Source: a virus. Taken from it: a stretch of DNA of 64,000 nt. The stretch lies in IMG/VR virus record IMGVR_UViG_3300027779_001649, positions 1-64,000 of that record. The stretch is one strand, 5' to 3'. A model generated the notes under the pieces. It saw only the letters and a program-made list of their open reading frames with translations, was not told the DNA's origin and made no database searches. The translations under genes and the position numbers were made by a program. This document shows positions 32,407 to 52,533 of this stretch, piece after piece. Within the stretch, counting starts at the first letter, position 1, and each line of letters starts with the position of its first letter.

Positions 32407-32414
32407 TATTTATA
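32407..32414 (-). promoter_or_regulatory. T4-type late promoter octamer of gp18
   Basis: TATAAATA on the minus strand, 45 nt before the gp18 ATG; GGAG follows near the start. Confidence 0.7.
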
Positions 32415-32456
32415 AAAATAAAGTTCTTAAAACCCACTTTTATAAGTGTTAAAACA

Positions 32457-32464
32457 TATAAATA
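32457..32464 (+). promoter_or_regulatory. T4-type late promoter octamer of the plus-strand TRAP unit
   Basis: TATAAATA on the plus strand, 5 nt before the ATG at 32470. With T4 spacing (octamer at -13 to -6) the transcript would begin at or next to that ATG, giving a leaderless message. It is divergent from the gp18 octamer 50 bp away. Confidence 0.5.
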
Positions 32465-32469
32465 AACGT

Positions 32470-32789: not shown

Positions 32790-33725
32790 ATGAATATATT
32801 AAAAGGGCTTATCTTCGTCCTAGCACTAATGATTCCCAATACATTGTATGCCTTAGAACTTGGTACTACAAAAGGTACTGCAAATTACCAAACGGGTATC
32901 GCATTGTCAAAAGTAATCACACAACATGGAGTAAAAATACACCCTGTACCACATAGAGGAACTAATATCTACACAGAACGAGTAAATGTTGGTAAATTAG
33001 ATTTTGCTATTGCGGGTGCATATCATCTATATTGGGCAAGGACAGGGACAGGCCCAGTTAAATATCCCCATAAAAATCTTCGTTTTGTAGCTAATCTACA
33101 AAACTTTAGAACCACATATGCAGTTAGAAATAATTCTAACATTAAGACTTATGAAGATTTAGAGGGTAAAAGAGTACCTTCGGGATTTGCAGGAGCACCA
33201 TCCTTTCATTGGATGATGGAAGCAAATCTAGCAAACGGTGGGTTAACTTGGGACGATGTAACTCCTGTGCCTGTTACTTCATTACCAAAATGTTGGGCTG
33301 GTCTTCAAATTGGTACTATTGATGTTTGCACCTTTGCAATAGGTTCTGGTTCTGCGAAGAAATTTAATATCCTAACTCCAGGCGGTCTGAGAGGTTTAAG
33401 TTCAAATATCGGTCAAAAAGAACAGGATATGTTCAGAAATTGGAAGGGAGTAAGTATTGTTACTCAAAATCCTTCTGATAACTTATCTCTAATAAGGGGT
33501 AAAACTAGAGTCACGCAGTTTTCATATCAGCTTTTCACAAATAAAGATGTGCCTGTTGATGTTGTAAAGGATGTTGTTCTTGCACTATACGAGGGAGGAG
33601 AAGACTTTCAAAAGTCCTCTGGTTTCACTAAGTCCTTTAAAAAGGAAAACATGAACAAGAATGTTACAATTCCTATGCACTCAGGTGCAAAGAAGGCTTA
33701 TAATGAACTTGGACTTTCTGAATAA
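32790..33725 (+). CDS. TAXI-family TRAP solute-binding protein
   Basis: A 311-residue secreted receptor. Residues 1-21 form a signal peptide (MNILKGLIFVLALMIPNTLYA, cleaved after YA). The mature protein starts LELGTTKGTANYQTGIALSKV and continues GTNIYTERVNVGKLDFAI, the TAXI signature. Later parts (FHWMMEANLANGGLTWDDV, VDVVKDVVLALYE) fit the family. TAXI receptors capture small organic solutes such as glutamate or other carboxylates in the periplasm and hand them to a fused permease, here encoded just downstream with a 23-nt overlap. Ligand unknown. AGGA lies about 7 nt before the ATG. Confidence 0.85.
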   Translation: MNILKGLIFVLALMIPNTLYALELGTTKGTANYQTGIALSKVITQHGVKIHPVPHRGTNIYTERVNVGKLDFAIAGAYHLYWARTGTGPVKYPHKNLRFVANLQNFRTTYAVRNNSNIKTYEDLEGKRVPSGFAGAPSFHWMMEANLANGGLTWDDVTPVPVTSLPKCWAGLQIGTIDVCTFAIGSGSAKKFNILTPGGLRGLSSNIGQKEQDMFRNWKGVSIVTQNPSDNLSLIRGKTRVTQFSYQLFTNKDVPVDVVKDVVLALYEGGEDFQKSSGFTKSFKKENMNKNVTIPMHSGAKKAYNELGLSE

Positions 33726-35040: not shown

Positions 35041-36204
35041 GAAACCTCTCCAATCGTATTGTTCTATATTGTCTTTGGTTAGTATAGAACCATCATCCAG
35101 TATACCCCAAATTCTGTATGAAGATTTATCTACAACTCTATTTACAAGGTGTTGTCCTCTCAGAAGACTTATCACTTTACCATGACCATATGCATATTCT
35201 TTATCCTTAGTGAATTTGTATATATGGTCACGTAAAGGCATTTTGTAAGTTAAATAATGTTCGTGTTTCATATCATTAACGCAAATGTAAGTATCTGGGT
35301 TGTTTTCATCCATATTCCCAAATATAGTTCCACATGCTTCACGCCATCCTTTTCTATGTTGATTGACCGCCCACTTCTCCATAGGGGGTTGGACATAAAT
35401 CGGCAAATGATTACTCATATCCATTTTATCTCCCTCCCATTCGTAAATATATCTCAGACTTCCTACACACCACTTCTGTTTTCTTTTCGCTTCCCAAGTT
35501 TCATAGATTTGTTGGGGCGAAGTTACATATATGTTTGCAGATTTTCCATTACCGTTAGAACCAAACACTTCATCTGCTGTACCACAGGGACATAGTATAT
35601 GTTTATCTGGTGATGCTTCTTTAAATACATCGTGTGTTGTGTTGATTGTATGGTCTAAATGTTTTACTACTTTATCGTAATAGTCCTGATATTCCGTACT
35701 ATGTCCAATAATAACATGAAGTTGTTCGGGACATACCTCATTTAACGCAATAAGAGCTGCCGTAGAATCTATACCACCAGACCAAAAGAAATCTATAGTC
35801 TTTCCTGTTGATGCAAGAATTTCAGCAGATGCTATCAAAACATCTGTTATATCTAAATTTTCTACTTCGGGGTAATGTTTGTATTCTAACCACGGCATGT
35901 TCAGAGATTTAACAGAACTATTAAATGTATATTGTTGTTCAGTATCTCTGTTTAGAAGTACACCACCATCAAATCCCATTTCATGTAAGGTAACTCGCTC
36001 TTTTCTCCAATCCTGCCATAAATGTTTTATTTCGGGATGTCCTTTGAAAAAAAGGTTATGGGATTTATTGAAGTTATAATAGGCATTAGGGCCTGTCCAA
36101 CTTTCTTTGATGTTGTCTTTAGATACTCCAAAATGAGAATAACTTTTTTCTCTCATATATTTAATAAATGGCCGTCCATAGAAAACCAACCGATACTTAT
36201 CCAT
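35011..36204 (-). CDS. PP-loop ATP pyrophosphatase-like protein
   Basis: The 397-residue product has the PP-loop motif FFWSGGIDSTAAL with SGGIDS at residues 143-148, followed by ALNEVCPEQLHVIIG, and a distal ILCPCGTADEVFGS. This superfamily (asparagine synthetase, QueC, TilS, PAPS reductase, GMP synthetase) activates a carboxyl or carbonyl by adenylylation. No CxxC tail of QueC is seen. Two paralogues occur at 50697-51848 and, in decayed form, at 46985-47692. It starts with a TAATG overlap after a small LTRPNTD protein gene. Substrate unknown. Confidence 0.7.
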   Translation of the reverse strand: MDKYRLVFYGRPFIKYMREKSYSHFGVSKDNIKESWTGPNAYYNFNKSHNLFFKGHPEIKHLWQDWRKERVTLHEMGFDGGVLLNRDTEQQYTFNSSVKSLNMPWLEYKHYPEVENLDITDVLIASAEILASTGKTIDFFWSGGIDSTAALIALNEVCPEQLHVIIGHSTEYQDYYDKVVKHLDHTINTTHDVFKEASPDKHILCPCGTADEVFGSNGNGKSANIYVTSPQQIYETWEAKRKQKWCVGSLRYIYEWEGDKMDMSNHLPIYVQPPMEKWAVNQHRKGWREACGTIFGNMDENNPDTYICVNDMKHEHYLTYKMPLRDHIYKFTKDKEYAYGHGKVISLLRGQHLVNRVVDKSSYRIWGILDDGSILTKDNIEQYDWRGFLHHYKEEWN

Positions 36205-36525: not shown

Positions 36526-38169
36526 CTACCAATCGTTTTTGTAGCTTCTAACTACTGGTGACCACTTAGTTCCATATTCGTCTACCATTAATCCTATATT
36601 TTCATCTTCTAAACCAGTAACAACGAAACCAAATGGTGCCATGTCCTGTTCCATTGCATATTGGTTTTCTGCAATCATTTTCATTCGGACATCTAAATTA
36701 GTTAATTCCTTAAAGTACGTTTGGTCTGTAGCCCATGCAAATAGAAAACCACATGAAACTAAATCATCAGTACAACCATCGTCAGCTTCCCACGATTGTC
36801 CTTTCACTATAAAGGTAGATAATTCATTAACAAAGTCGTAATCCTCTATAATTAATTTATCATCCTCTACCATTTGTTTTAGATTGGAACAACCAATCTT
36901 CTTTGTTGCCTTTGTAGTTCGTACACCTAATTGAGCTTTACCCCCACTGAAACCTCCACCAAGTACCTGTCCTGACCTTCCACGCATACTTGTCATGCAT
37001 AGGTTGTCATATTCCAAGTCAAACTGCATAGTGTTTGCAACACCTTCTCCTATATCATTTATCTCTATCAATACATATGCTTGATTATATGCCCGTGCGA
37101 GATCGTATATCTTCTGTGGATACACAAGGGGTTTAATCTCATTGTCTCTGTACTTTGCGACTACTGTGTATGGCATTTGTGAGATATCAAATATAATAAA
37201 TGCAGAGTAATCGTTAGATGTTCCTCTAGAAACATCACAAGTAATAAAATAAGTGTGGTCTTCTTCTGGGTTCTTATATACCTCTAATCCAGCATTTGAC
37301 ATTATCGGATCTATAAAGGACAGTGTTCTAAGTTTCCTTGCAGATATAAGAGTATCAATAGAACCTAAGAATTCACAACCAAACTCAGTATTAAACTGTT
37401 GTTCACTTGTATTCTTAATTGTTTCGGCTTTCCAGGCGTCATCTCTTCCAGGCACTTCACTCCAATGAACTTCTATGGGAATATATGAGTTTCTCTCATG
37501 TTCAGCATCAGTCCACATCTTGTAAAACATATTCATACCGTGTGGAGTAGAAACGATCATTACTTTACTTGTTTTACCAGAGGAAATAGTAGGATACACT
37601 GAACTAAAGAATTGTTCTGCTACATTAGCTGGTACATAAGCAAACTCGTCAAGGAAAATAATGTTATATGAACCACCACGAACCGCACTAGCACTAGTTG
37701 AACTCGCAAGTATTTTAGAACCATTTTCTAACTCCAGACTACCCTTGTTCCAAGACATAACGCCTTGTTGTAACCATTTGGGTAAATGTTCATATGCTAA
37801 CTGCAACCTTCCCAACAAATCTCTAGCAGTCGCAGCCTTATTCGCAAGAATGGCAACATTTACAGTCTCATTAAACAAAACATAATGCAGTAAGTAGGCG
37901 ATGATAGTAGTAGATTTTCCAGACTGTCTAGGAAGTTTACAAATGGTGAAACGATTGTTGTGAAATGTTCCTATCATCTCCTTCTGAAAATCATACAGTT
38001 TAAAAGGAACAAGACCCTCATCAATATTAACAATCTTAATATATTCTTGTATAAAATATATTGGATCTTTCATACATTTAGTATATTCCTCTAGCTCTTC
38101 CTTTGTCCAATTCTGTTGGACATTTGCTTTTTTGAGGTTAGGATTGCCGAGGTAGACTGAATCAGACAT
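36526..38169 (-). CDS. 17: Terminase large subunit gp17
   Basis: The 547-residue product has the T4 gp17 ATPase motifs: LPRQSGKST at 79-87 (Walker A), NIIFLDEF at 169-176 (Walker B), and STPHGMN (coupling motif). The C-terminal nuclease domain shows CDVSRGTSNDYSAF, YVLIEINDIGEG and DDGCTDDLVSC with acidic metal ligands. It cuts concatemers and drives packaging through the gp20 portal. T4 gp17 is 610 residues. Three bases separate it from the HesB gene. Confidence 0.97.
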   Translation of the reverse strand: MSDSVYLGNPNLKKANVQQNWTKEELEEYTKCMKDPIYFIQEYIKIVNIDEGLVPFKLYDFQKEMIGTFHNNRFTICKLPRQSGKSTTIIAYLLHYVLFNETVNVAILANKAATARDLLGRLQLAYEHLPKWLQQGVMSWNKGSLELENGSKILASSTSASAVRGGSYNIIFLDEFAYVPANVAEQFFSSVYPTISSGKTSKVMIVSTPHGMNMFYKMWTDAEHERNSYIPIEVHWSEVPGRDDAWKAETIKNTSEQQFNTEFGCEFLGSIDTLISARKLRTLSFIDPIMSNAGLEVYKNPEEDHTYFITCDVSRGTSNDYSAFIIFDISQMPYTVVAKYRDNEIKPLVYPQKIYDLARAYNQAYVLIEINDIGEGVANTMQFDLEYDNLCMTSMRGRSGQVLGGGFSGGKAQLGVRTTKATKKIGCSNLKQMVEDDKLIIEDYDFVNELSTFIVKGQSWEADDGCTDDLVSCGFLFAWATDQTYFKELTNLDVRMKMIAENQYAMEQDMAPFGFVVTGLEDENIGLMVDEYGTKWSPVVRSYKNDW

Positions 38170-38171: not shown

Positions 38172-38477
38172 TTATACTCCAAAACTTTCACCACATCCAC
38201 AACTACTCGTAGATGTTGGATTTTTCACTGTTAGAAAACTACCACCGAGCTCGGTTATATAATCAATCTCACTACCCAAAACGTACATCTCAGCAAGTGG
38301 GTCAACCACAAGAACATCCTCTATAGGCTCAGACCATTCAACATCAGGCAGATTGCTCTTCAGATTCCAGACATACTGGAAACCAGAACATCCTCCACCG
38401 ACAACAGCCAGTGTTACAAAGTCTCCCTTAGATACAGACTTTAAGTAGTCTCTTGCAGATTGTGTTAATGTTACCAT
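38172..38477 (-). CDS. HesB/IscA-type iron-sulfur carrier
   Basis: A 101-residue A-type carrier with the three invariant cysteines: Cys30 in VVGGGCSGFQY and Cys93/Cys95 in SSCGCGESF. It binds an Fe-S cluster and passes it to apo-proteins. HesB-like genes next to the terminase are known in cyanophages. The phage encodes several radical-SAM enzymes and a DUF59 protein, so cluster delivery to phage enzymes is a sensible inference. A near-match to the late octamer (CATAAATA) lies just upstream. Confidence 0.92.
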   Translation of the reverse strand: MVTLTQSARDYLKSVSKGDFVTLAVVGGGCSGFQYVWNLKSNLPDVEWSEPIEDVLVVDPLAEMYVLGSEIDYITELGGSFLTVKNPTSTSSCGCGESFGV

Positions 38478-38884: not shown

Positions 38885-39265
38885 TTAGTTCACCTCTACT
38901 ATCTCTTGGACTGATGTGGAATGAGAGTTATATGCTTCGCCAAATTCTTCTCTTAATTTGGTACTTATTGTAGTCGCACAATATTTTTTACATACCCTAG
39001 GAGCATTTTGTGGATCTTTTATTAAACCTTCATAAAATTCTGTCCATTCTTTAGAATTAATTATATCGTCAATAGTCTCTACATTACTTAGTTTTAAATG
39101 TTCTTTAAAGAATATTTCTTCAATACCTATATGGTATGTTGGTGTTTGTCCATCAACAGTTTGATAGGGGTCTGTCCAACAACAAGGAATTAAATATCCC
39201 CTTGCAGAATAACCATAACCTTTACCAGATAAACATCTGGGCTCTAATTTTCTTTTTACTGGCAT
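38885..39265 (-). CDS. Cysteine-rich SPASM-like companion of the upstream radical SAM gene
   Basis: A 126-residue protein from ATG at 39265, with GGAGGAG 8 nt before it. It has LEPRCLSGKGYGYSARGYLIPCCWTDPY near the N-terminus and VCKKYCATT near the C-terminus. These match the C-terminal cysteine set of the fused radical-SAM protein at 14792-15805 (VWPCCYIP, CNKFC), so the SPASM-like half is encoded separately. A clear paralogue is at 50215-50715. It overlaps the radical-SAM stop by 10 nt in another frame. It probably binds an auxiliary Fe-S cluster and acts with that enzyme. Confidence 0.7.
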   Translation of the reverse strand: MPVKRKLEPRCLSGKGYGYSARGYLIPCCWTDPYQTVDGQTPTYHIGIEEIFFKEHLKLSNVETIDDIINSKEWTEFYEGLIKDPQNAPRVCKKYCATTISTKLREEFGEAYNSHSTSVQEIVEVN

Positions 39266-40113
39266 AATGAACTCCTCCTCAACCACTGTTCTTCATTCCA
39301 AGGAAGTTTATCATCCACATCCTTTACTCTATTATTAACTTCAGTAGTAGTAAATGGTTTGCTACTAATAAAATTTTTTGTATTTTTTGGTTTAAATTCA
39401 TCATCATCTCCTCTCCATCTAGAAGAGTATAATTTTAAAAACCTAATACCAGCATCTGTTGCACGTTTCTGAACCTCATCTATGTGATCTTCATTATAAC
39501 TAAAAACTATGCATTGTTGTTCAACCTGTAACCCCATATATTTAGCTATCATCGCCATTTTCCAAAGTTTTTCACCGTCCTGATTAACTCTATACTTATG
39601 ACTTTCTTCTGGTAATCCATCTATACCAAATCTCCACACTGCTAGGGGATGTATTTCAAATGCCTTTTTATACCACTTCTCTGACCTATGTGAAGCTGCG
39701 GTTGCAATACATGTATAGACTTTTTCTTCATAACATCTACGTAAAATATCGTGGAACTTAGGATGGGCGGTTGGATCTGAAATTTGACCACAAAAAAGAA
39801 TATTAGTAAAATGCATAAGAATCTTATCAAAATCTTCAAGGGACATATCGTGACCAGGCGGTTTCATGCCAGAGGCGGCATAATCCTGTCTCCTACATCT
39901 TGGACAGGCTAGAGGACATCTTGGAGATAAATCTATATTAATTTTAGTACGATACTTCGCTTTATATATTAATTCATCATTAGATAATTTATCGTTTGAT
40001 CCCTTTGTCCAATGATCTCGTTGAGTGAGTATTGGTTTTTTTAAAGACCTTTTAGCTATCTGAGTTCTAAGATCTAGTTCTTTTAACTCACCTTTAGTGT
40101 ATTCTACAGGCAT
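39256..40113 (-). CDS. Radical SAM core protein, split type
   Basis: The 285-residue product has CxxxCxxC at Cys66/Cys70/Cys73 (PRCPLACPRCRRQD), then FCGQISDPTAHPKF in place of the GGEP strand, CIATAASHRSEKWYKKAF, WRFGIDGLPEESHKYRVNQ and FLKLYSSRW. It lacks the C-terminal cysteine domain, which is encoded by the next gene. A 60-residue basic N-terminal extension and a 45-residue tail after the core are extra. It is inserted between gp15 and gp16, breaking the usual T4 order. A paralogue is at 49641-50237. Substrate unknown. Confidence 0.85.
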   Translation of the reverse strand: MPVEYTKGELKELDLRTQIAKRSLKKPILTQRDHWTKGSNDKLSNDELIYKAKYRTKINIDLSPRCPLACPRCRRQDYAASGMKPPGHDMSLEDFDKILMHFTNILFCGQISDPTAHPKFHDILRRCYEEKVYTCIATAASHRSEKWYKKAFEIHPLAVWRFGIDGLPEESHKYRVNQDGEKLWKMAMIAKYMGLQVEQQCIVFSYNEDHIDEVQKRATDAGIRFLKLYSSRWRGDDDEFKPKNTKNFISSKPFTTTEVNNRVKDVDDKLPWNEEQWLRRSSLCQ

Positions 40114-40116: not shown

Positions 40117-40917
40117 TTATTCATCGTCACCTGTTACTGGATTAAATGTTTTAGCATCTTCAAAGAAAGAGGTTGCTTCATTAAATCCAAAATTATCATC
40201 AGCTTCAGCTGTCATGGGAGACGGTGTAACCACCAACCTTTGTTCTCTCTTAGGTGATGCATCTGGCATATCTGTATATTGATCTGCTTGCACTGTTTTA
40301 ATAACTTTACTAGAGCTAACTGGACCGTAGAGATAAAATTTACAAGTGAAAGCTAGTGTATATACTATTGCTCGTCTCGCAGTAAAGTCACCTTCATAAC
40401 TATCTTCATATGAAACACTATTAAGAATTAAAGGAATGTCCCTTTTAATTCCCATATCTGCCATATCATTTATCGTCACCGTATAGTCTGGTTGAAAGTA
40501 TGGTAGAATTTGTTCTACGATCTGTAATGCGTCCTCAGATTGTTTAGCCATTATGTAAAGCTCAAATGAGAGATTATAAGGAACAGGCATATATTGTGTA
40601 TCTAGTTGAGTTGAATTTGCACCTTTAACTTTTTTGAATTTCTGTACACGATTAAGTTTACGAGCTGCATCGTATTCTAGATTCTTAATTTCAAATCCTA
40701 TACGTGGAAGTGTAACTGCAACCTGTTTTGTAAGGTCTGCATCTTCACGTAATCGGACTAGAAATTTTTCTTTCGGGCCGTATGCAAGAGGAACTTTCAT
40801 AGTTTGTACTACGGTTCCACTGCTATCTTTACGAACCAAGTGTATGTTGTTGAATATTGATCCAAACGCAACAACCACCTTTCTCATGGTTTCGTGGTAA
40901 AATTGTTGTCCTAACAT
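40117..40917 (-). CDS. 15: Tail completion and sheath stabiliser gp15
   Basis: A 266-residue protein beginning MLGQQFYHETMRKVVVAFGSIFNNI, the N-terminal signature of gp15, with FLVRLREDADLTKQVAVTLPR and GFEIKNLEYDAARK. It caps the tail and joins it to the neck. T4 gp15 is 272 residues. It starts 1 nt inside the gp14 stop. Confidence 0.92.
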   Translation of the reverse strand: MLGQQFYHETMRKVVVAFGSIFNNIHLVRKDSSGTVVQTMKVPLAYGPKEKFLVRLREDADLTKQVAVTLPRIGFEIKNLEYDAARKLNRVQKFKKVKGANSTQLDTQYMPVPYNLSFELYIMAKQSEDALQIVEQILPYFQPDYTVTINDMADMGIKRDIPLILNSVSYEDSYEGDFTARRAIVYTLAFTCKFYLYGPVSSSKVIKTVQADQYTDMPDASPKREQRLVVTPSPMTAEADDNFGFNEATSFFEDAKTFNPVTGDDE

Positions 40918-41927
40918 TATAATCCTCCAGCATCACCGAAAGGATTTCTTTCGGAGAAGTCTAATACGTCATCATCAAGGGAATCAAACAGTTCATTTTG
41001 TGTAGTCTTGTCTTGCGACATATCACCCACTACGTAATCTTCATTGAGTAAGTAAGAATCGTCACCACTGTCTGCTGGGTTCTCTAATATAATACTTTCA
41101 CCAACACCACTTGTATCATTCTCACCTATGAGATTATCTCCACTAGTCTCTTCTAATAGGAGTCCTTGATCTCCATTAGTACTTATACCGATTTCTAATC
41201 GTATATTCTCATTGACAAAGGCAGTTTGTTCTAAGGTCATCTGATAACCAAGAGCATCCATTGTATGTTCTGTTTCTATTGCATCTATAGCTGCAATGTC
41301 TGTGTCAATAACCTCAGAGCTGTAGTCAAATAATCTACATTGTAGTTTATATACTGGGTTATTATCCAGTTGATAAAAAGGTTCGTCATGGTCTACAAAA
41401 TTTATTTGGAATATTTTATCCAGAACTGGATGGTATATTAAATCACCTTCCAATGGTCTATCTGCATCTGTAGAGGTAGCTTCTGAAATTAAATAACCCC
41501 CATCATAAGAACTACTAATATCTACAACGGTACTATCTAAAGAGGCTGCTTCTAATTGAATAGAACCACTTAGAGTGGATGTACCACTTTCTATTGTCAT
41601 TTGTTTTGTTAAATCTTGAAACCTTGTTTTACTTACAGTAAATGTAACCTGACTTAGATTTTGTAAACCAAACTGAGTCATCAGTTCTCGTTCACCAGCA
41701 AAACCTCCATCGCCGTTATCAATATACATCTCTATTTTATTTTGGGTAGTAAATTTTGCGAGGTTGTCTTCACCAAAAAGAGTGTCTTCATTAGTTAAAG
41801 TGCGATCAAGATAGTAGACATCATGACCGAAAATTTGAATGGCTTCAGTAAGTAAATTTGAATACAGATTCTTCTCTGCGGTAATAGCATGAGAATTACT
41901 AGTATGAAAGAATGAATTGACTGACAT
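40917..41927 (-). CDS. 14: Neck protein gp14
   Basis: A 336-residue neck protein with NSHAITAEKNLYSNLLTEAI and IFGHDVYYLDRTLTNEDTLFGE at the N-terminus, characteristic of gp14. It lies between gp13 and gp15 as in T4, where gp13 and gp14 form the neck that seals the filled head. T4 gp14 is 256 residues; here the C-terminal third is a longer acidic, Gly/Asp/Glu-rich extension. Confidence 0.9.
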   Translation of the reverse strand: MSVNSFFHTSNSHAITAEKNLYSNLLTEAIQIFGHDVYYLDRTLTNEDTLFGEDNLAKFTTQNKIEMYIDNGDGGFAGERELMTQFGLQNLSQVTFTVSKTRFQDLTKQMTIESGTSTLSGSIQLEAASLDSTVVDISSSYDGGYLISEATSTDADRPLEGDLIYHPVLDKIFQINFVDHDEPFYQLDNNPVYKLQCRLFDYSSEVIDTDIAAIDAIETEHTMDALGYQMTLEQTAFVNENIRLEIGISTNGDQGLLLEETSGDNLIGENDTSGVGESIILENPADSGDDSYLLNEDYVVGDMSQDKTTQNELFDSLDDDVLDFSERNPFGDAGGL

Positions 41928-41930: not shown

Positions 41931-42749
41931 TTATCCTACATGAAACATTATTGGGGGTTCATTACTTAATATCGTTGTTTCTATTTCTCTAATTTCTTCC
42001 TGAGCTTGTGTAAAGATAGCTGCACCATCCATACTAACACCCCCCAGCATCGTAACTCCATTGAACTTAGAAAGATTTGCACCCCATTGACGTTTAATTA
42101 AAGCTGTTGCATATCTTTTTAGATGGATGTCATCATAAATGTCTGTGTAAACTGAGGGATCTAATTTACGGAAACACTCTATAACAACATAGTCCTCTCC
42201 ACCCACAAAGTCTGTAGACCAATCGGCGTCAATATATAAACGATTTTGATGTTCCTTAAAACGAATAGGAGCTTCACCAACAAGAATATGTTCTAGTAAA
42301 TCTAAATTATTCATCATCATCTGGTAATGGATAACAGAAGTGGAAGTCAGATCAAACAAATCGTTTAGATGTAACTGATAACGAGCATCAAACATATTTG
42401 CACCAGTTCCAGTTCCAGTTAAAGGAAATACCTGTACTACAGAGATAACTGAACTAGGTAATGGTATATAATTATTACCCTCAGACCAATCTGCGGTAAT
42501 AGTATCATCTACTGTATCTGTTCCTGTAGTGGTTGTATTTGTTTTAGCTCTAGTAACTTCTGCTTCAGTAACCAAATGTTTGAGATACATTCTTTCAACA
42601 CCATCATAATGATACTGTGCAAAATACTGTAGTGCTTCGTCAATACGGTCATCTGTTTGGTCATCTGACACATTAATGTCAATCACTCCATAACCCAATG
42701 CTCGTAGACAATAAGTCTTAAATGTTGCTTTTGTTGTTGGTACTGCCAT
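41931..42749 (-). CDS. 13: Neck protein gp13
   Basis: A 272-residue protein starting MAVPTTKATFKTYCLRALGYG, with DDRIDEALQYFAQYHYDGVERMYLKHLVT near residue 32 and DIHLKRYATALIKRQWGANLSKF, all typical of gp13. It is the first gene of the neck-terminase run. A late octamer lies 20 nt before the ATG. T4 gp13 is 309 residues. Confidence 0.92.
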   Translation of the reverse strand: MAVPTTKATFKTYCLRALGYGVIDINVSDDQTDDRIDEALQYFAQYHYDGVERMYLKHLVTEAEVTRAKTNTTTTGTDTVDDTITADWSEGNNYIPLPSSVISVVQVFPLTGTGTGANMFDARYQLHLNDLFDLTSTSVIHYQMMMNNLDLLEHILVGEAPIRFKEHQNRLYIDADWSTDFVGGEDYVVIECFRKLDPSVYTDIYDDIHLKRYATALIKRQWGANLSKFNGVTMLGGVSMDGAAIFTQAQEEIREIETTILSNEPPIMFHVG

Positions 42750-42768: not shown

Positions 42769-42776
42769 TATTTATA
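42769..42776 (-). promoter_or_regulatory. T4-type late promoter octamer of gp13
   Basis: TATAAATA on the minus strand, 20 nt before the gp13 ATG, overlapping the GNAT stop. Confidence 0.75.
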
Positions 42777-43275
42777 AAAGAAGAGGTCTGGTTACTACGC
42801 AATTATCATCATCAAAGTAACTCTGTTTGACGAAATTTACCCCAGTATATGCGTATAAAGCACTCAATTTTGGATATGACCATATAATTTCACATCCTCT
42901 TTTTCTTCCATAATCCATAGTCTCATTTAATAACCAAGTTGATAGACCTAATCCTCTATGTTTAGGATGTACCCATAACCCCCTAGACCTATAAATTTTA
43001 AGTCCACATTGAGATCCTGAGTTAACACCCACTATTTCTTCATATGATTCTCCATAATGACTAACGTATTTTATTGCTATAAAGACAGAAGTTTTGAGAT
43101 ACCTTTTAATATCTAACTGTCTTATAACTTTATTTCCCTCCAAAGCCCATGTACTATGGGGATAAATGGTTTTCTTATTTTTCCATAAGTCCGACTTCCA
43201 TACCTTATATATCTCCTCAAACGACACGGGTTCTAGATAGTACAGCTTATTTTCCCCAGTAATAATCTGCGGCAT
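42772..43275 (-). CDS. GNAT-family acetyltransferase
   Basis: A 167-residue protein with RGLWVHPKHRGLGLSTWLL near residues 112-130, the acetyl-CoA loop R-x-x-G-x-G/S of GNATs, and a C-terminal SALYAYTGVNFV strand-helix that closes the fold. GNATs transfer acetyl groups to amines of proteins or small molecules. It overlaps the TRAP receptor gene by 29 nt and is the last gene of the operon before gp13. Target unknown; no strong ribosome site precedes it, so coupling to the receptor gene is likely. Confidence 0.8.
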   Translation of the reverse strand: MPQIITGENKLYYLEPVSFEEIYKVWKSDLWKNKKTIYPHSTWALEGNKVIRQLDIKRYLKTSVFIAIKYVSHYGESYEEIVGVNSGSQCGLKIYRSRGLWVHPKHRGLGLSTWLLNETMDYGRKRGCEIIWSYPKLSALYAYTGVNFVKQSYFDDDNCVVTRPLLL

Positions 43276-44323
43276 AATTATAAGGAGTAAATGCTTTGTT
43301 CTTATAAGGAACTACTTTACTTGCCCATTTCTTTTGACTCGCAAGAACTTTCCGAAACCATTTGTTCTTTTTGGATTCTTCTTTAAACATAATATCTATG
43401 GTTTTCAATTCTGCAACAAGAATATCAGGTGGTGTCTTCATGATACGCACCCCATGCTTTTCAACCATTCTTGATAACGCTCTTGCGTTTTCGGATTGTA
43501 TCCAAGTGAGCCACCACAGATAGGACTCATATGCAGCAGAACGCACTGAGGCACGTTGAGAGTCAGATAGACTCCTCCAGATACCACCATTAATAAGAAG
43601 GTCACCAGTATTACTATGTTCATGTAAACTATTTAGATAGTAATATTTCCAGATAGTTGGAAACCCTAGTCTTTCATCTTCTAATCCACCGACAAATTCT
43701 GCACAGTTGATTACACCTTTCTGTCCAGCAGCAAGAATCTCTCCACCAGGCATACCAATAGTCTGCATACCCATACGAGCATATAGTTCTACATTAATGC
43801 CTGTCTGTCTGCACTTAAAGTTTTTAAGGTCTGCAAGGTTTTCAATTGGACGATGGAACCACCCCAAAGGTTGATTCTGAGTAGGCATAACAGGGAAAGG
43901 GACTACATCCAGTTTCAACACTTCTTGATAAAATGTACGATACATCTCTAGTCCACCACCGTGAAACATCCATCCAAGAAAATCAATACCATCCATTCCA
44001 TATGGGCCTCCTAAAGGAGAGTTAAATAGTCCTAGAGTTTTATCCTTACCCACCCAATAATAACTCTGTGTCCATGCACCTCCCACAGCACCAGATGCTG
44101 TTGCATCAAGAACTTGAAAGGCTGGGACTAAAGCACCAGCAGGTTTAATCTCCATCAGAACTTTACCATCAGTTAGAACTTTAACTTTATCTGCAATGAA
44201 CTTTGCTTGTTCATTGAAAGTACTAACAGCAGGATAAGAACTTGCGATTAAGATTTTTGTGCCCGCAGATGCAGGGGAAAAGGTTAATAGGATGGCAGCC
44301 GCAGCCATATAAATATATTTCAT
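43247..44323 (-). CDS. dctP: TRAP transporter periplasmic receptor DctP (TakP-like)
   Basis: A 358-residue secreted receptor with a clear signal peptide (residues 1-20, AILLTFSPASA cleaved before GTK). The mature part has TGKVLMEIKPAG-like DGKVLMEIKPAGALVPAF, LGWFHRPIENLADLKNFKCRQTG (ligand Arg in the hinge), PGGEILAAGQKGVINCAEFVGG and YYLNSLHEHSNTGDLLING. This follows TakP-type receptors that bind 2-oxo-acids, the Arg making the salt bridge to the carboxylate. It follows DctQ and DctM in the same operon, the standard TRAP set. AAGGAG lies before the ATG. Ligand class is inferred. Confidence 0.88.
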   Translation of the reverse strand: MKYIYMAAAAILLTFSPASAGTKILIASSYPAVSTFNEQAKFIADKVKVLTDGKVLMEIKPAGALVPAFQVLDATASGAVGGAWTQSYYWVGKDKTLGLFNSPLGGPYGMDGIDFLGWMFHGGGLEMYRTFYQEVLKLDVVPFPVMPTQNQPLGWFHRPIENLADLKNFKCRQTGINVELYARMGMQTIGMPGGEILAAGQKGVINCAEFVGGLEDERLGFPTIWKYYYLNSLHEHSNTGDLLINGGIWRSLSDSQRASVRSAAYESYLWWLTWIQSENARALSRMVEKHGVRIMKTPPDILVAELKTIDIMFKEESKKNKWFRKVLASQKKWASKVVPYKNKAFTPYNYAADYYWGK

Positions 44324-44349
44324 GATTACTCCTTATTCAAATCACTTCT

Positions 44350-45594
44350 CTAGTTATTTAGGTACGTTGGTAACCACGTTGCTATACTAGGAATCATAAA
44401 AATAATTATCACAGCAAGTACCTGTATCCACATAAACGGCATCATACCTTTAAATATCATACCCAAATCCCATTCTGGAACGACCTGTTTTATATAATAT
44501 GATGTTAACGCAACGGGTGGTGTTAAGTAGGCAGTCTGTATAACTATCCCTAAACAAACTGCAAACCATAACATATCCACACCAGAACTAATAAGAACTG
44601 GTAAGAATATGGGAACAAATACCAACACTACCACAGGCCATTCAAACGGCCATCCCAATAGATGACATAGTACTAGTATACAACCGACTAATGCCCAAGG
44701 GGGTATTGGTAAAGAATTTAAGGTGTCCACTATCACGTTATCGCCGCCTAGTGCAGTAAAGACCGCACCAAATATTGTGGAGGAGATTGCGAGTAGCATA
44801 ACCACAGCAGAAGTGTCTGTAGTTTTTAATAGAGTTTCTTTCAGTTCTAACTTACCGTTTAACAATGCAAGAACTAATGCACCGAAAGCACCAAACGCAC
44901 CAGCTTCTGTAGACGTTGCAAGTCCAAATAACATAGAACCTAACACAGTAGATATAAGAACTGCTAGAGGGATAACATCTATTAAAACTCTACGATAGTC
45001 TGGTGTCTCTTGTTGTTTGGGTACAGAATGAAATAGACAGTATATCGCATACATTGATGCAATCATTAATCCTGGCACTAATGCTCCAGCATAAAGATCA
45101 ATAATACTAAGGTTCATAGTAGGAGCCATAACTATAAGAGGAACGGATGGTGGTATCATAATAAGAGAACCACCACCAGCAATAACTCCTGCCGTCAATT
45201 TCGGATTGTAACCTAGTTTCATCATATGAGGAGCTGCCATAATACCAAGTAATGTTACAGACGCACCAACTACTCCTGTCGCAAGACTTATCAATACTGC
45301 AATAACAATAACAACTAAGTTAAGATTACCAACTATAGTTTTCATACTATAGAATAGTTTCTCAACTAATCCTGCCTTTTCGCAAATATAACCCATGAAT
45401 ATAAACATAGGTATAGCCATGAATACTTCGTTTGATAATGCGCCGACTAAGTTATAGTACGCAAGATCAAATACATTCTCCCCCATAGAGAGAAATCCAA
45501 AACCTAATGCTAGAAATATAAGAGTGAAAGCTACAGGTAAACCCAAAAATATACCTATAATCATAGTCACTAACATCACAATCGCAAGCAACAC
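44350..45594 (-). CDS. dctM: TRAP transporter large permease DctM
   Basis: A 414-residue membrane protein with about 11-12 hydrophobic helices. Signatures of DctM: GVVGASVTLLGIMAAPHM, VIAGGGSLIMIPPSVPLIV, STEAGAFGAFGALVLALL and LTPPVALTSYYIKQVVPE. It forms the sodium-coupled transport channel. GTG start, with AGGAAG 7 nt upstream. It overlaps DctQ by 19 nt, as is common in bacterial TRAP operons. Length is normal (about 425). Confidence 0.9.
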   Translation of the reverse strand: MLLAIVMLVTMIIGIFLGLPVAFTLIFLALGFGFLSMGENVFDLAYYNLVGALSNEVFMAIPMFIFMGYICEKAGLVEKLFYSMKTIVGNLNLVVIVIAVLISLATGVVGASVTLLGIMAAPHMMKLGYNPKLTAGVIAGGGSLIMIPPSVPLIVMAPTMNLSIIDLYAGALVPGLMIASMYAIYCLFHSVPKQQETPDYRRVLIDVIPLAVLISTVLGSMLFGLATSTEAGAFGAFGALVLALLNGKLELKETLLKTTDTSAVVMLLAISSTIFGAVFTALGGDNVIVDTLNSLPIPPWALVGCILVLCHLLGWPFEWPVVVLVFVPIFLPVLISSGVDMLWFAVCLGIVIQTAYLTPPVALTSYYIKQVVPEWDLGMIFKGMMPFMWIQVLAVIIIFMIPSIATWLPTYLNN

Positions 45595-46019
45595 TTCCTC
45601 ACTTCCTGTACACCATATATCAATAACAAAATTAATCCTAAAGTAATAGAAAATTTATATGGCCATATTATTAATTGCGTCATTGTATTGGAACTCTTTT
45701 CCCATATAGAAATGCTTCTAAAACTATCCATTGCAGAATAGTACGTGAGAATACCAATAGAGGGAAAGAATAGACAGTAACCTAGAAGATCTATGATTGA
45801 TTTTGTTCTATCTGAAAAGTTCTTCCAGTAGATATCTGTTCGTATGTGAGTTCCTTTGGAAAGACTATAACTAGCACCTAATATAATTAATGCGCCATAT
45901 AATTGTGGTACGATATCAACAGCAAAGTCAAATCTTAAATCAAAAAAAAATCTACCTAGAACATTGGTAACAGTTAGTAAAACGATTCCCAAAACAAACC
46001 ATGAATATATTTTAATCAT
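45576..46019 (-). CDS. dctQ: TRAP transporter small permease DctQ
   Basis: A 147-residue protein with four hydrophobic segments, the DctQ topology: SWFVLGIVLLTVTNVLGRFF, the LYGALIILGASYSLSKGTHIRTD signature near residues 40-62, IDLLGYCLFFPSIGILTYYS and a C-terminal helix. It supports DctM and links it to DctP. The ATG follows the oxygenase stop directly (TAG-ATG), so translation is coupled. It is slightly short for the family (about 160). Confidence 0.85.
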   Translation of the reverse strand: MIKIYSWFVLGIVLLTVTNVLGRFFFDLRFDFAVDIVPQLYGALIILGASYSLSKGTHIRTDIYWKNFSDRTKSIIDLLGYCLFFPSIGILTYYSAMDSFRSISIWEKSSNTMTQLIIWPYKFSITLGLILLLIYGVQEVRKCCLRL

Positions 46020-46700
46020 CTACTTCTTAATTTGCATATGAGCATTAAAACTCATACTCCTTCTTTCACCTTTAACATGAAATGGATAGACAAAGTGTTT
46101 TAAATAGGACGGAAAAACTAATAACTTTCCAACCTCTGGTTTAAATTTTACACCATCACTTCGCATATCACAAGCCTCTCCATACATAAATTCAATCAAA
46201 CCATTCGCAGGGTAATGGTCTTCACCATCCTCTTGATATTCTCCTTCCATCTCATCAGGTAATTTTAAATAGATGACGGCTGAAAAGTCACCACTATGTT
46301 TATGCCAAGGATTATACTCCCCAGCATATTGACTGACTATCCAGCTCTGTGTTAAATGGATGTTATCTAATTGGGGAACAGTACTATGTCCTGACATCTT
46401 GTACCAATTATATGCTCTATTCTTGTCTCTTATATAATTTAGGTAGTCCAGACATCCCCTCTTCATAGTATCAGAGAGATACTTCTTATCATCATCAGAG
46501 GAAATTGGTATCTGAATTTCCTTATGAACCTTGCCTACCAGATTATCAGACCAATCCCATTGAGCACTTTGTTGCTCACTACTTAGTATCTTGTCTCCAA
46601 CCTTATTTACAATTTTAACGAACGTCTCTGGTACAGAGGTTTCTAAAATCGTAGGACTGAATACTTCATGCCAAATCTTATCCCCTCTTATCTTAGTCAT
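46020..46700 (-). CDS. 2OG-Fe(II) oxygenase-like protein (TIGR02466 type), TRAP operon
   Basis: A 226-residue protein with NPWHKHSGDFSAVIYLK (His133, His135, Asp138 as metal ligands), a jelly-roll strand NGLIEFMYG, and LLVFPSYLKHFVYPFHVKG with distal His and the Arg pair in GERRSMSF. It lies in the operon just before DctQ. One possibility is that it acts on a solute imported by the TRAP system, but this is inference. It overlaps the LTRPNTD gene by 8 nt. Confidence 0.75.
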   Translation of the reverse strand: MTKIRGDKIWHEVFSPTILETSVPETFVKIVNKVGDKILSSEQQSAQWDWSDNLVGKVHKEIQIPISSDDDKKYLSDTMKRGCLDYLNYIRDKNRAYNWYKMSGHSTVPQLDNIHLTQSWIVSQYAGEYNPWHKHSGDFSAVIYLKLPDEMEGEYQEDGEDHYPANGLIEFMYGEACDMRSDGVKFKPEVGKLLVFPSYLKHFVYPFHVKGERRSMSFNAHMQIKK

Positions 46701-47710: not shown

Positions 47711-48367
47711 ATGGAACCACCTTATAGATTAGGTCTTGTTGCCACCAGTAGAAGTGGAAGTACATATTTTCGTAGATATCTTTGCGATAAATATGGTCTA
47801 CACGATTCGGCCTCATGGTTAAAACACAATCCCTATGAAAAGATAAATGAAGCCCCCTTTGCAAAGAAACATCATATTCTAAAAATTCTAACACACTATG
47901 TTCCTGATGATGAAATAGATGAAGTTATATCAGAATCAGAAACAGTATGGTTATATAGAAAGAATACGTTTAAGCAGTTTCTCTCTCATGTCTACCGACT
48001 AATAACCAAGATAAATTTGGTATATAAGAAGGAAGAAATAGAGTTTTTAAAAAATAGTATTCCAAACAATAGTATTGTAGCCACAACAGAACAATACGAT
48101 ACTTTCATGAGAAGACTTGAAAAATTTTGGGATTTATTTTATAGTAGAAATAAAGGAACACTAGTAGAATATGAAAAATTTGTTTCTGATCCAAAAGAAG
48201 TTGGTTGGGAAATTATGGAAGACTATAATTTAGAATGGATAACGTGGGAATCTATGGAGCCGGAATCACATGGATGGCCTGATATTAAAATACCATTGAA
48301 AATGTCCATAGATTATGAAAATAAATTTAAAAATATAGAGGAAATTAGGAAATGGTTTAATGGGTAG
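47711..48367 (+). CDS. Sulfotransferase-like P-loop protein, copy 1
   Basis: The 218-residue product opens with VATSRSGSTYF at residues 10-20, the PRSGST-type 5'-phosphosulfate loop of sulfotransferases, and later has VEYEKFVSDPKE, resembling the 3'-phosphate-binding Y-E-x-x-x-x-D region. Sulfotransferases move sulfate from PAPS to sugars or other acceptors. A second, divergent copy follows with an 8-nt overlap. An APS-kinase-like gene lies at 14286-14744. The phosphosulfate loop is shared by other P-loop proteins, so the assignment is tentative. Confidence 0.65.
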   Translation: MEPPYRLGLVATSRSGSTYFRRYLCDKYGLHDSASWLKHNPYEKINEAPFAKKHHILKILTHYVPDDEIDEVISESETVWLYRKNTFKQFLSHVYRLITKINLVYKKEEIEFLKNSIPNNSIVATTEQYDTFMRRLEKFWDLFYSRNKGTLVEYEKFVSDPKEVGWEIMEDYNLEWITWESMEPESHGWPDIKIPLKMSIDYENKFKNIEEIRKWFNG

Positions 48368-49097
48368 ATATTGTTTAATTTGCACTCCACGGTCTGGTTC
48401 ATTTTATGTTCAAAATTATATATCCAAAATTTTTGACTTAGAATTTGGTAGTGAATGGTTTGGTAGAGTTAAGCATGTTGGATATAAAGGTATGGAGACT
48501 TCTTCAGTAGATATAGACCACAGTGTTAATGAAGACTTATTAACTAATGAAGAAATAAGTAAGAGATTAGTATATTTAAAAAACTACGAAACCTCATTTA
48601 TTATTAAATGTATGCCGTTCCAATTATCAAATACAATAGAGAGAAAAGACTTACCCGATAAAGAAAAAATGGAAGTTGCAACAAAAATTATGAAGAATTT
48701 TGATTTGATTTATATGGAAACTAAAGATAAAGTATCCCAGTTTTGTTTTGATGTTATATCTAAGAATCAAGATATTGGTAAAAGAAATTTCACCCACTAC
48801 AATCCTGATATAAGACAAATACCCCTAGAAAACTCAATGACTGCAACTAGAGAAAACTACGAGAGTTTTTGTGAACGTCAAGACTTCGTTACTAGGTTTC
48901 AAGAAAAAAATTGGAAAGGTGAGCCCATAATAGTATGGGAAGATTTTATAAATAGTCCTAATATTGAAATGACAAAAATTAAAGATTGGTATAAAATTGA
49001 TGAAAAAAATATTACAGTGAATAGACCCATCATCTCACATGCAGCTTATAAATTGGTCTTTAGTAATTATGGAGAAATTGAAAAATGGTTTGGATAG
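48360..49097 (+). CDS. Sulfotransferase-like P-loop protein, copy 2
   Basis: The 245-residue product starts MGRYCLICTPRSGSFYVQNY with the phosphosulfate-type loop TPRSGS at 9-14, and has IIVWEDFINSP in the place of the Y-E-x-x-x-x-D motif. Like its neighbour it ends in a GEIEKWFG-type tail. The two are about 30 residues different in length and appear to be an old duplication. It overlaps the APH-like gene by 13 nt. Confidence 0.65.
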   Translation: MGRYCLICTPRSGSFYVQNYISKIFDLEFGSEWFGRVKHVGYKGMETSSVDIDHSVNEDLLTNEEISKRLVYLKNYETSFIIKCMPFQLSNTIERKDLPDKEKMEVATKIMKNFDLIYMETKDKVSQFCFDVISKNQDIGKRNFTHYNPDIRQIPLENSMTATRENYESFCERQDFVTRFQEKNWKGEPIIVWEDFINSPNIEMTKIKDWYKIDEKNITVNRPIISHAAYKLVFSNYGEIEKWFG

Positions 49098-49657
49098 ACG
49101 GAAAAAATATGCCTAAATGGCACAGGAATGATGATTTTCTACATGACCTTGCTATATCATTGGTAGAAGTTCATACCAGAGAACCTCAGAACGAACCAGA
49201 AACAAATATGTTTAAGATAGCAGATGGTCTTGATACCTCTGATCCATTTGTTAAGGAAGCAGTAAGGCACTTCAATGTAATAAGAGAAGACTTAGCATGT
49301 AAGAGTGCAGTTCTACATGGTGATTTGTGGAACGAGAATATAATCATAAAAGAAAATGGTAGATTATCAGGACTGATTGATTGGGAACACACTCAAATAG
49401 GCGACCCTCATTGGGACTTCCGTATGATTAGAAGATTTATAGGCTGGGACGATTTACATTGGCTTATCACTTTGTATAATGCTAAGGCTCAATATAAAAT
49501 TAATTCTGCTACTATTTACATCTTAGATAAACTAGCACTTTGCCATCAGTATCAATATAGACTAAGAAAAAATGATAGCCCTCTTTGGAACGACACCGCA
49601 TTATTTAAAGAGTATATGGAAAGATGGCCAGTGTGCGTTAATGAAATATCCGACTAG
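49085..49657 (+). CDS. APH/choline-kinase-like phosphotransferase, C-lobe only
   Basis: The 190-residue product has the APH catalytic and metal motifs: VLHGDLWNENIII near residues 76-88 (catalytic Asp80 and Asn85) and GLIDWEHTQIGDPHWDF near 96-112 (Mg-binding Asp99). Normal family members are about 300 residues; the N-terminal ATP-binding lobe is absent. It may be a remnant, or work as a binding or regulatory protein. GGAG lies 9 nt before the ATG. It overlaps neighbours on both sides within the plus-strand island. Confidence 0.7.
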   Translation: MVWIDGKNMPKWHRNDDFLHDLAISLVEVHTREPQNEPETNMFKIADGLDTSDPFVKEAVRHFNVIREDLACKSAVLHGDLWNENIIIKENGRLSGLIDWEHTQIGDPHWDFRMIRRFIGWDDLHWLITLYNAKAQYKINSATIYILDKLALCHQYQYRLRKNDSPLWNDTALFKEYMERWPVCVNEISD

Positions 49658-50237
49658 AACATATAACTTTTATAATAAGCCTATTAATCTAGATATAGTT
49701 CCCAGATGCACCCTCCTTTGTTCCAAGTGTATGAGACAATCAGATTTTTATAAGTTTGTAGATAAAAGTAAATTAGAAGAGATAAGTATAAAAGACTACG
49801 AAAAGATTCTCAACTGTTTTTCATATGTTGAATGGTGTGGTCAAACTGGTGACCCCATATTTCATACTAAATTCTTTACTCTTCTTGAGATGAGCAGGGG
49901 TACTAAATTAGACATCCATACTGCCGCCTCACATAAACCTAAAGAATGGTATAAGAAAGCATTTAAAACTAATAAAGATGCAAAGTGGATATTTGGGGTA
50001 GATGGGTTACCAAAGGACAGCCATATCTATAGAATAAATCAAGATGGTGAATTCCTATTTGAAGTTATGAAAATGGGATCAGATATGGGTTTAGAGATTC
50101 AGTGGCAGATGATAAAGTTTAAGTATAATCAAAATAACATAGATGAAGTAATGCAGCTCTGTAGAGATAATTCTATCAGTTTTAAATTAATAAGATCCTC
50201 AAGGTTCGTATCAGATGACCCACTCAGACCAATTTAA
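49641..50237 (+). CDS. Radical SAM core protein, split type, second copy
   Basis: The 198-residue product has CxxxCxxC at Cys23/Cys27/Cys30 (PRCTLLCSKCMRQ), EWCGQTGDPIFHTKF, DIHTAASHKPKEWYKKAF and WIFGVDGLPKDSHIYRINQDGE. These match the radical-SAM protein at 39256-40113 step by step. The C-terminal cysteine domain is again in the next gene. I took ATG at 49641, after the previous gene's reading, because the longer start lies in the APH-like gene. It is about 87 residues shorter than copy 1. Confidence 0.8.
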   Translation: MKYPTRTYNFYNKPINLDIVPRCTLLCSKCMRQSDFYKFVDKSKLEEISIKDYEKILNCFSYVEWCGQTGDPIFHTKFFTLLEMSRGTKLDIHTAASHKPKEWYKKAFKTNKDAKWIFGVDGLPKDSHIYRINQDGEFLFEVMKMGSDMGLEIQWQMIKFKYNQNNIDEVMQLCRDNSISFKLIRSSRFVSDDPLRPI

Positions 50238-50715
50238 ACCAAGATGTATATCAGGACAATGTTTAGGGCATTCTAATAAGGGGTACTTAGTTCCTTGTTG
50301 TTTTGTAGATGCATTTTATGATAATATTGAGAAAAAGAAACTCATACATCATGATAACGATAAACTTAATGCATTGTGGGATACATCCTTAAAAATTTCC
50401 AATAATAACCATATACATGATATAACAATGAGTGATATATGGATGGATTTTTATACCATGTTACAGGATAAAGATCAAGAGAAACCTTTAATGTGTATTA
50501 AGTGTTGTGACCCTGTATATACTAAGGAGTTAAAAGAAGGTGAAATAGCTCCAACACGATTTAGCCAGAAGACTAATCCAGTACATGCTGTCAGCAGAAG
50601 AAGTACAGAAGTAACTCATGTGATAAAGATTAATAGTATGTCAGTAAATGATGAACTTTTGGTGATGACCTCATCTGGCCGACCTAAGCCAAAAGATTAT
50701 AAACAAAGAGAATGA
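50215..50715 (+). CDS. Cysteine-rich SPASM-like companion, second copy
   Basis: The 166-residue product has FKPRCISGQCLGHSNKGYLVPCC near residues 7-29 and MCIKCCDPVYTKEL near 94-107, paralogous to the companion at 38885-39265 (EPRCLSGKG-GYLIPCC and CKKYC). It starts 23 nt inside the radical-SAM gene, in the +1 frame. It has a longer Ser/Arg/Thr-rich C-terminus than copy 1. The last 19 nt overlap the PP-loop gene of the other strand. Likely an auxiliary Fe-S module for the radical-SAM partner. Confidence 0.65.
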   Translation: MTHSDQFKPRCISGQCLGHSNKGYLVPCCFVDAFYDNIEKKKLIHHDNDKLNALWDTSLKISNNNHIHDITMSDIWMDFYTMLQDKDQEKPLMCIKCCDPVYTKELKEGEIAPTRFSQKTNPVHAVSRRSTEVTHVIKINSMSVNDELLVMTSSGRPKPKDYKQRE

Positions 50716-51848
50716 CGGTCAAGATAATCCATGATGTTATCCTTATGAACTATCGTTCCATCATTAACAATCGCCTTCACCCTAAAATCATTAGGTAATG
50801 GTGAGTAGAACTCTTTCTGAGCTCTTCCTTCCATCAATCTAGTTTTTCCTATACCATATGCAAATTCCCTATCATATAATGCAATGAAGTCTCTCAACAT
50901 CATCTTTGCTTTCTGGAATCTTTCTGGGTCACTCCTAGGACTGTGATTATACCAAAACATATTTCTATTATAATGTTGATTAATTGACCACTTGTGTATA
51001 TCTGGATCTCTAAAGAACGGCTGATAATTTTCTAGGTCAATCTCATCTGCTTTTATATTTTGTAAGAAACGGAATGACTGTGTGATGAATGTATACCGTG
51101 TTATTGTCCACCACATTTCATAATTCCATTCCTCATTTTCTGGGTCATCTAGATTTGGTTTCTTTCTTGGGTCTATTGCATACCCCAATGGTTTGTTGGG
51201 ATCACGAACTGCGTCATCTACTTGTGGGGGGTAACCGACACTACCAAACAATCTATCAGCTTCGCACCCACTAGTATAAACATTAATATCTGGATTCGCC
51301 ATACCATAAATGTTTCCTGTCATATCTAAACGATGCGGGCCTTTAATAACATAATCTTCCCATAACTTGGGATAATGTTTAATAACTGCGTCACCTCCAG
51401 CAATGATATGCAGCTGTTCTCTAGGACAAACTTCTTTCAGTGCGTATAACATAGCAGTACTATCTACACCACCAGAATAGAATACCTCAATATGTTTACC
51501 CATATCTCTTAATTCTTCTGCACGTTTAATCATAAGGTCATTAAAGTCTGCGTTCTCTACCTCTGGATAATATTTGTAATCCAAAACAGGATAATACTTT
51601 TCCATATTATCCATATTAAACACATATTCATCTACACCCAAAGAATCACTTATGTATGAACTCTTAGGACGATGGCAATATTGAGTCATAAATTCTTCAC
51701 GTTGTCTCGCTTCCTTATACTCTTCAAAGAACTCTTTCTCAAATTCAGGCCATCCGTACTGTCCCTTTCTAGGCGCACCTTTAACAACCTTATCCATAGC
51801 CCTTCTGAAGTCATCAGAAATATATACATACTTAATTGTGCTTTTCAT
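50697..51848 (-). CDS. PP-loop ATP pyrophosphatase-like protein, second copy
   Basis: The 383-residue product has EVFYSGGVDSTAMLYALKEV with SGGVDS at residues 125-130, the PP-loop for ATP. YKYYPEVENADFNDL and ITQSFRFLQNI are shared with the paralogue at 35011-36204. GGAG lies 5 nt before the ATG at 51848. It follows the glycosyltransferase-like gene with a 17-nt overlap. The end of the gene overlaps the convergent plus-strand gene by 19 nt. Substrate unknown. Confidence 0.7.
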   Translation of the reverse strand: MKSTIKYVYISDDFRRAMDKVVKGAPRKGQYGWPEFEKEFFEEYKEARQREEFMTQYCHRPKSSYISDSLGVDEYVFNMDNMEKYYPVLDYKYYPEVENADFNDLMIKRAEELRDMGKHIEVFYSGGVDSTAMLYALKEVCPREQLHIIAGGDAVIKHYPKLWEDYVIKGPHRLDMTGNIYGMANPDINVYTSGCEADRLFGSVGYPPQVDDAVRDPNKPLGYAIDPRKKPNLDDPENEEWNYEMWWTITRYTFITQSFRFLQNIKADEIDLENYQPFFRDPDIHKWSINQHYNRNMFWYNHSPRSDPERFQKAKMMLRDFIALYDREFAYGIGKTRLMEGRAQKEFYSPLPNDFRVKAIVNDGTIVHKDNIMDYLDRHSLCL

Positions 51849-52533
51849 AGTCACTCCAATTATGTGGTTTGTTTGCAGAATGCGTAAAGTGAACTAGTTT
51901 TATGTCTGGATGAAATTCTTCTCCTAGATATATGTACTCGTTACCTGTTACTTCCCTGTACTTCCTAGTAATCTGAACTTGCCAAGTAGACATCTTCTTA
52001 CCGTAGTTAATACCAGAATCAACTACCCACCTAGTAAACCATTCATTGGGTAGGGTAATTAATTCTAATCTCTCTTTAACCGAATCCTCTACAAAATACT
52101 GTTCACCATTTACGGGGCCTTTGGTCACACCATTTTCAATGTAGTGTCTCTGCCATCCGTTTATGTCTTTCATAAACTTATCGTAGATATATTTGCAGTC
52201 CTTCGGATAGTACTTAAAGAATCCACCGTTGATAGAGTATCCTTCTTTCTTTGTGTCTCTCCACCACCCAGGCATTGCAAGGAACTGTCCACGCATAATA
52301 GGGTAGTCAAATATCCTTTCATAGTCTCCCATAAGAAGAACGTCTATATCCATGACACAAATAGGTGTATCCTGATCTAGCTGCATACCCCACATCTTAT
52401 TCCATTGCAACAGCACCTCTGGATGATATGGTTCATGTATCCAATGCAGATCATAATTTGATAATTTACTTTCAAGATAATCTTCATATTCTTGTCCATA
52501 CTTATCACCAATTCTTATTAATATAACTTTCAT
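51832..52533 (-). CDS. Glycosyltransferase-like protein
   Basis: A 233-residue protein with CVMDIDVLLMGDYERIF near residue 58, a DxD motif of GT-A fold enzymes that bind the sugar nucleotide with a metal, then MPGWWRDTKKEGYSINGGFFKY, which matches GT8-like ends of the nucleotide pocket. A paralogue at 55238-55996 has YLDLDCLIQKDL and GWWNDID. It probably adds sugars to phage or host glycans. It overlaps neighbours by 4 and 17 nt. Confidence 0.7.
   Translation of the reverse strand: MKVILIRIGDKYGQEYEDYLESKLSNYDLHWIHEPYHPEVLLQWNKMWGMQLDQDTPICVMDIDVLLMGDYERIFDYPIMRGQFLAMPGWWRDTKKEGYSINGGFFKYYPKDCKYIYDKFMKDINGWQRHYIENGVTKGPVNGEQYFVEDSVKERLELITLPNEWFTRWVVDSGINYGKKMSTWQVQITRKYREVTGNEYIYLGEEFHPDIKLVHFTHSANKPHNWSDYEKHN

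Follow-up and report, generated by a model that had tools for sequence, protein, structure and literature searches.

A DctPQM-type TRAP transporter operon among the neck genes of T4-type phages, accompanied by a second, TAXI-type TRAP system

The DNA analyzed here (the window) is a 64,000-nucleotide stretch forming part of an 88,823-base IMG/VR record. It carries a complete dctQMP operon, encoding the small permease, large permease and periplasmic receptor of a TRAP transporter, among genes of T4-type phage structural proteins. The operon is, with good confidence, a real and long-kept phage module, and the importer it encodes is predicted to work. A second TRAP system, of the TAXI type, is located in the same window; the finding is best extended to cover both importers of this phage.

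All three genes of the operon lie on the minus strand. The gene dctQ (45576-46019) encodes 147 amino acids and was identified through PF04290 (E=4.9e-19), hydropathy and an alignment of 11 phage copies; dctM (44350-45594) starts with GTG and encodes 414 amino acids that cover positions 1-412 of the 413 in profile PF06808 (E=7.6e-60); and dctP (43247-44323) encodes a TakP-like receptor of 358 amino acids (PF03480, E=2.2e-27). In the profile search, DctQ, DctM and DctP each exceeded the Pfam gathering score, and DctM matched the SiaQM/SiaT large permeases in the PDB. A Sec-type signal peptide (MKYIYMAAAAILLTFSPASA) was read from the N-terminal sequence of DctP. Hydropathy gave four hydrophobic helices for DctQ and 13 hydrophobic segments for DctM; a DctP-family receptor with a signal peptide, a full DctM domain and a small four-helix DctQ together make a TRAP transporter of the DctPQM type. 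The genes dctQ and dctM share 19 nt, dctM and dctP are separated by 26 nt, and an AAGGAG ribosome site is located shortly 5' of the dctP ATG. The preliminary description had reported three intact genes in the tight order DctQ-DctM-DctP with good ribosome sites, and these results bear it out, for the ribosome site at dctP. It had also placed the operon directly upstream of the neck gene gp13. The operon is upstream of gp13; however, the two do not adjoin, as a GNAT acetyltransferase gene (42772-43275, minus strand; PF00583, 5.2e-8) lies in between. This gene follows dctP directly on its 3' side with a 29 nt overlap, and synteny shows it preceding gp13 in relatives as well. On the other side, dctQ is adjoined upstream by a 2OG-Fe(II) oxygenase gene (46020-46700, minus strand; PF13759, 1.7e-17; phrog_81), which is probably co-transcribed with it.

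The genes gp13, gp14, gp15, gp16, gp17 and gp18 around the operon are T4-type. The window encodes on its minus strand a gp13-like neck protein (41931-42749; phrog_211, 4.4e-39), the gp14 neck protein (40917-41927; PF11649, 2.5e-28), the gp15 tail sheath stabilizer (40117-40917; PF16724, 5.5e-84), the gp17 large terminase (36526-38169) and the gp18 tail sheath (30347-32362; PF17482, 2.5e-17). By gp17 and gp15, the closest cultured phages are Methylophilales phage Melnitz and Pelagibacter phage HTVC008M (69% and 67.5% for gp17, respectively); their hosts belong to the SAR11 and OM43 groups. No TRAP genes were found in either phage, whereas the phage in the window carries both systems. TRAP transporters are absent from the main text of two papers on this phage group (PMC7029224 and PMC9004378), and a search of open-access text found no published description of either importer in phages. 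INPHARED, which holds nearly all cultured phages, contained no close relative of DctM or DctP. Three DctM matches in unannotated faecal phage records (24-27% identity) and two DctP matches in Listeria phages (25% identity) were too distant to count as relatives. No tRNAs that could hint at the host were found in the window.

The T4 late-promoter motif TATAAATA was not enriched across the window (14 occurrences against 10.1 expected; 13 of 100 shuffled sequences had as many). Copies on the minus strand are located shortly 5' of gp13 (42769-42776, 27 nt before its start), gp18 (32407-32414) and the presumed gp23 (23456-23463); given the lack of enrichment, these are only suggestive. There is no copy immediately 5' of dctQ, and the timing of the importer genes may therefore differ.

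Several other genes in the window were noted. An IscA-like iron-sulphur gene (38172-38477) and a radical SAM gene with its partner (38885-40113), all on the minus strand, lie among gp15, gp16 and gp17, and a similar-looking pair is present at 49572-50715 on the plus strand. Two sulfotransferase-like genes and a phosphotransferase-family (APH) kinase occupy 47711-49657 on the plus strand, opposite to the virion genes; homologues of both sulfotransferase-like genes adjoin gp13 in related phages. Two similar proteins (35011-36204 and 50697-51854, minus strand) share an SGG(I/V)DSTA motif that looks PP-loop-like by eye; neither has a Pfam match, and related phages contain more copies.

Scans of IMG/VR found DctM on 24 contigs and DctP on 24, about 26 distinct contigs in total. 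The search for DctP, DctQ and DctM beside gp13-gp17 that the preliminary description had proposed recovered this linkage on nine other contigs. Three of these (L001, L002 and L003) are identical (100%) or nearly so to the window across the TRAP-gp13-gp17 region, within the reach of each contig. In the remaining six (L005, L006, L007, L008, L022 and L136) the operon is near gp13-gp17 at lower identity. In L006 it is located directly before gp17 and not gp13; the module has therefore moved within the structural cluster. More distant carriers include 154-kb and 244-kb records on which T4-type genes for the terminase, capsid and portal are present. A further carrier, a 228-kb record (G003), had no terminase, capsid or portal match and is therefore only putatively viral. 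Among the 29 nearest gp17 loci with at least 8 kb in view, only two contained dctPM, and the module is therefore accessory. Intact in phages, under selection and missing from some relatives, these host-type genes are candidate auxiliary metabolic genes.

Phylogenies were calculated for DctM (11 phage and 80 bacterial sequences) and DctP (12 phage and 82 bacterial sequences). In each, the phage sequences form one clade with an SH-aLRT support of 100. The closest cellular homologues are DctPQM operons, mostly of Betaproteobacteria and Alphaproteobacteria (L054, L055, L071, L079, L085, Bradyrhizobium L056 and others), and a long branch with full support lies between them and the phage sequences; the best bacterial identity is 49% for DctM and about 52% for DctP. 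The bacterial relatives were drawn from species genomes, and a closer uncultured host could therefore exist. The gene order is Q-M-P in all phage operons, whereas DctP precedes DctM in 70 of the 73 bacterial relatives. One bacterial TRAP operon (L084) has the phage-like Q-M-P order and, from a reading of its sequence, lies beside a ring-hydroxylating dioxygenase gene; it is a possible lead to a donor or a ligand. All three phage genes are under strong purifying selection, with dN/dS values of 0.055-0.113 for DctQ, 0.071-0.092 for DctM and 0.059-0.122 for DctP, similar to those of gp14, gp15 and gp17.

The best PDB sequence match to DctP was the ketoacid-binding TRAP receptor of Synechococcus CC9311 (7ug8, E 7.6e-41), solved with 2-oxovalerate and calcium; TakP, a 2-oxo-acid TRAP receptor of Rhodobacter sphaeroides (2hzk/2hzl), followed at 1.4e-38. 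Each is about 29% identical to the phage protein, and the gene for 7ug8 is cyanobacterial. An AlphaFold model of DctP from an alignment of 62 sequences had a pLDDT of 92, mostly above 90 in the mature part; a first model from 12 close sequences reached a pLDDT of 50 and was discarded. The best PDB fold match to the retained model was the closed form of TakP (2hzl; E 1.1e-30, TM 0.85/0.90), followed by 7ug8. TakP holds its acid and cation through Tyr100, Gln156, Arg177, Glu214, Glu240 and the backbone of Trp215 (PMC1839085). The five side-chain ligands Y100, Q156, R177, E214 and E240 align with Y89, Q151, R172, E209 and E235 of phage DctP, which are invariant in the 12 phage sequences; judged from the alignment, the Arg, Tyr, Gln and two Glu predicted to contact the carboxylate, the 2-oxo oxygen and the cation are all present. 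W215, which binds the cation through its backbone oxygen only, is replaced by F210 in the 12 phage copies. Phage DctP further differs from TakP in its own second-shell residues, in being phage-encoded and in the order Q-M-P of its operon. In three bacterial relatives (L055, L085 and L086) the TRAP genes are adjoined by an aminotransferase gene, an enzyme class that acts on 2-oxo acids. The structure matches, pocket residues and aminotransferase neighbors all point to an acid of the 2-oxo or 2-hydroxy type as the probable ligand of DctP. With the TakP fold and all five side-chain ligands kept, the earlier suggestion of a TakP-like receptor for 2-oxo acids is well supported.

The second importer was first found when the permease was hit in the DctM scan of the same IMG/VR record. 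The preliminary description, although right about DctPQM, had missed this system (32790-35040, plus strand). It consists of a TAXI-family TRAP receptor (32790-33725; TIGR02122, 2.6e-29, over the cut-off; also PF16868 and TAXI receptors in the PDB) and a shortened TAXI-TRAP fused permease (33661-35040; TIGR02123, 9.1e-97, 325.2 bits against a cut-off of 320.65), the start of which is probably the ATG at 33706. With both models over their cut-offs, the pair is assigned to the TAXI-TRAP type. The permease is, however, not full-length as in cells: about 55 internal residues, comprising a helical stretch present in the cellular proteins, and the C-terminal domain are missing. Cellular TAXI permeases have about 600-780 amino acids and 13-17 hydrophobic segments, compared to about 441-459 amino acids in phages and 11 segments in the phage permease. 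The same shortened shape was present in the two other phage copies examined. Directly upstream, a 108-aa protein with two CxxC pairs (32446-32772, plus strand) has no Pfam or NCBIfam family; by synteny it is found beside the TAXI genes, 69-83% conserved, in nearly all phage copies where the view allows.

On about 26 viral contigs, the TAXI-TRAP genes are located between gp18 and gp17; among the 55 nearest gp17 loci that extend far enough for them to be visible, 12 have them. Wherever a comparison offered enough change for a measurement, the permease showed purifying selection. Between phages, the receptor diverges faster than the permease (about 46% versus 58% identity), which would fit changing ligands. 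In the comparison of the window with 3300001683_000202 (L031/L136), both importers are nearly unchanged (dS of 0.08 for DctP and 0.12 for the TAXI permease), whereas the intervening gp13-gp17 genes have diverged strongly (dS 0.40-1.17), a pattern that suggests recombination within this intervening block.

A bacterial TRAP operon on a phage contig might be explained as an assembly chimera, misjoined to phage sequence, or as a passenger picked up recently and neutrally. The lack of a close relative in INPHARED and of the genes in the closest cultured phages could be taken in favor of this explanation. However, three other contigs have the same junctions at 100% and six more have diverged versions of them, and the recurrent linkage to gp13-gp17 on independent contigs excludes the chimera with a bacterial TRAP operon that had been named in advance as a refutation. 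A recent, neutral acquisition is also at odds with the strong purifying selection on all three genes, with the deep clade that contains only phages and with the gene order specific to them. We give this explanation next to no weight; the results argue for a complete DctPQM operon carried by a T4-type phage, as the preliminary description had claimed, on the basis of the Pfam matches, the T4-type neighbors and the independent contigs.

The cargo is less constrained. The receptor may have shifted, for example, to a lactate-like 2-hydroxy acid or to a longer or polar 2-oxo acid, in which case it would be a mistake to label the system an importer of pyruvate or 2-oxoglutarate. The same fold group binds lactate with calcium (2zzv) and 2-oxovalerate (7ug8). 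Moreover, 24 phage-invariant positions of DctP differ from the 23 bacterial relatives compared, and W84, Q86, Q149, H236 and N238 among them are sequence neighbors of pocket residues; the part of the site that faces the ligand side chain may therefore differ from that of bacterial relatives. The putative dioxygenase gene adjoining the Q-M-P relative L084 can be counted on the same side. Against a shift, every side chain expected to hold the cation and the 2-oxo acid in the core of the site is kept, and the aminotransferase neighbors in relatives point to 2-oxo acids. We regard a shifted cargo as rather unlikely, albeit worth keeping in mind. Much less probable is a role outside nutrition, such as superinfection exclusion, interference with a function of the host surface or periplasm, or an altered sodium balance of the membrane. 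Related pelagimyophages do encode other envelope proteins that are not clearly linked to nutrition (a curli pore, PMC7029224), but the three subunits occur as a set and under constraint, which extends to the ligand residues and to long stretches of conserved DctM sequence, and a non-transport role would need fewer parts.

For the import of organic acids, the reading that we prefer, the following sequence of events is proposed. If, as we infer, the genes are expressed to the benefit of the phage, DctP would be exported to the periplasm and there enclose a metal cation and a small monocarboxylate of the 2-oxo (or 2-hydroxy) type. The loaded receptor would then dock on DctQM, the inner-membrane complex that would import the acid using the sodium gradient. 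Organic acids could thus keep entering the central metabolism of the host during infection without a direct ATP cost. Since the same phage has a second, TAXI-type importer, organic-acid uptake seems to be a repeated theme in this group.

Known phage metabolic genes mostly affect intracellular enzymes or provide single binding proteins, such as the PstS of cyanophages. The protein families described here are ordinary and their place is surprising; their presence in the phage is well supported, and their function is predicted from sequence. Relatives from other samples also keep the importer genes intact, which suggests an assisting role of these viruses of marine bacteria in the carbon uptake of infected cells. 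A broader and more tentative reading, which we think possible, is a marine T4-type lineage that controls the carbon diet of its host with two independent sodium-driven organic-acid importers, DctPQM and a minimal TAXI-TRAP that works without the internal helices and the C-terminal domain of cellular permeases. If this is true, the short TAXI permease would show the minimum size of a working TRAP membrane unit. Equipped with a complete importer of three parts and another beside it, infected cells could change what they take up from seawater. SAR11 and OM43, the hosts of the closest cultured phages, are abundant marine bacteria with small genomes, and uptake could limit the burst size there.
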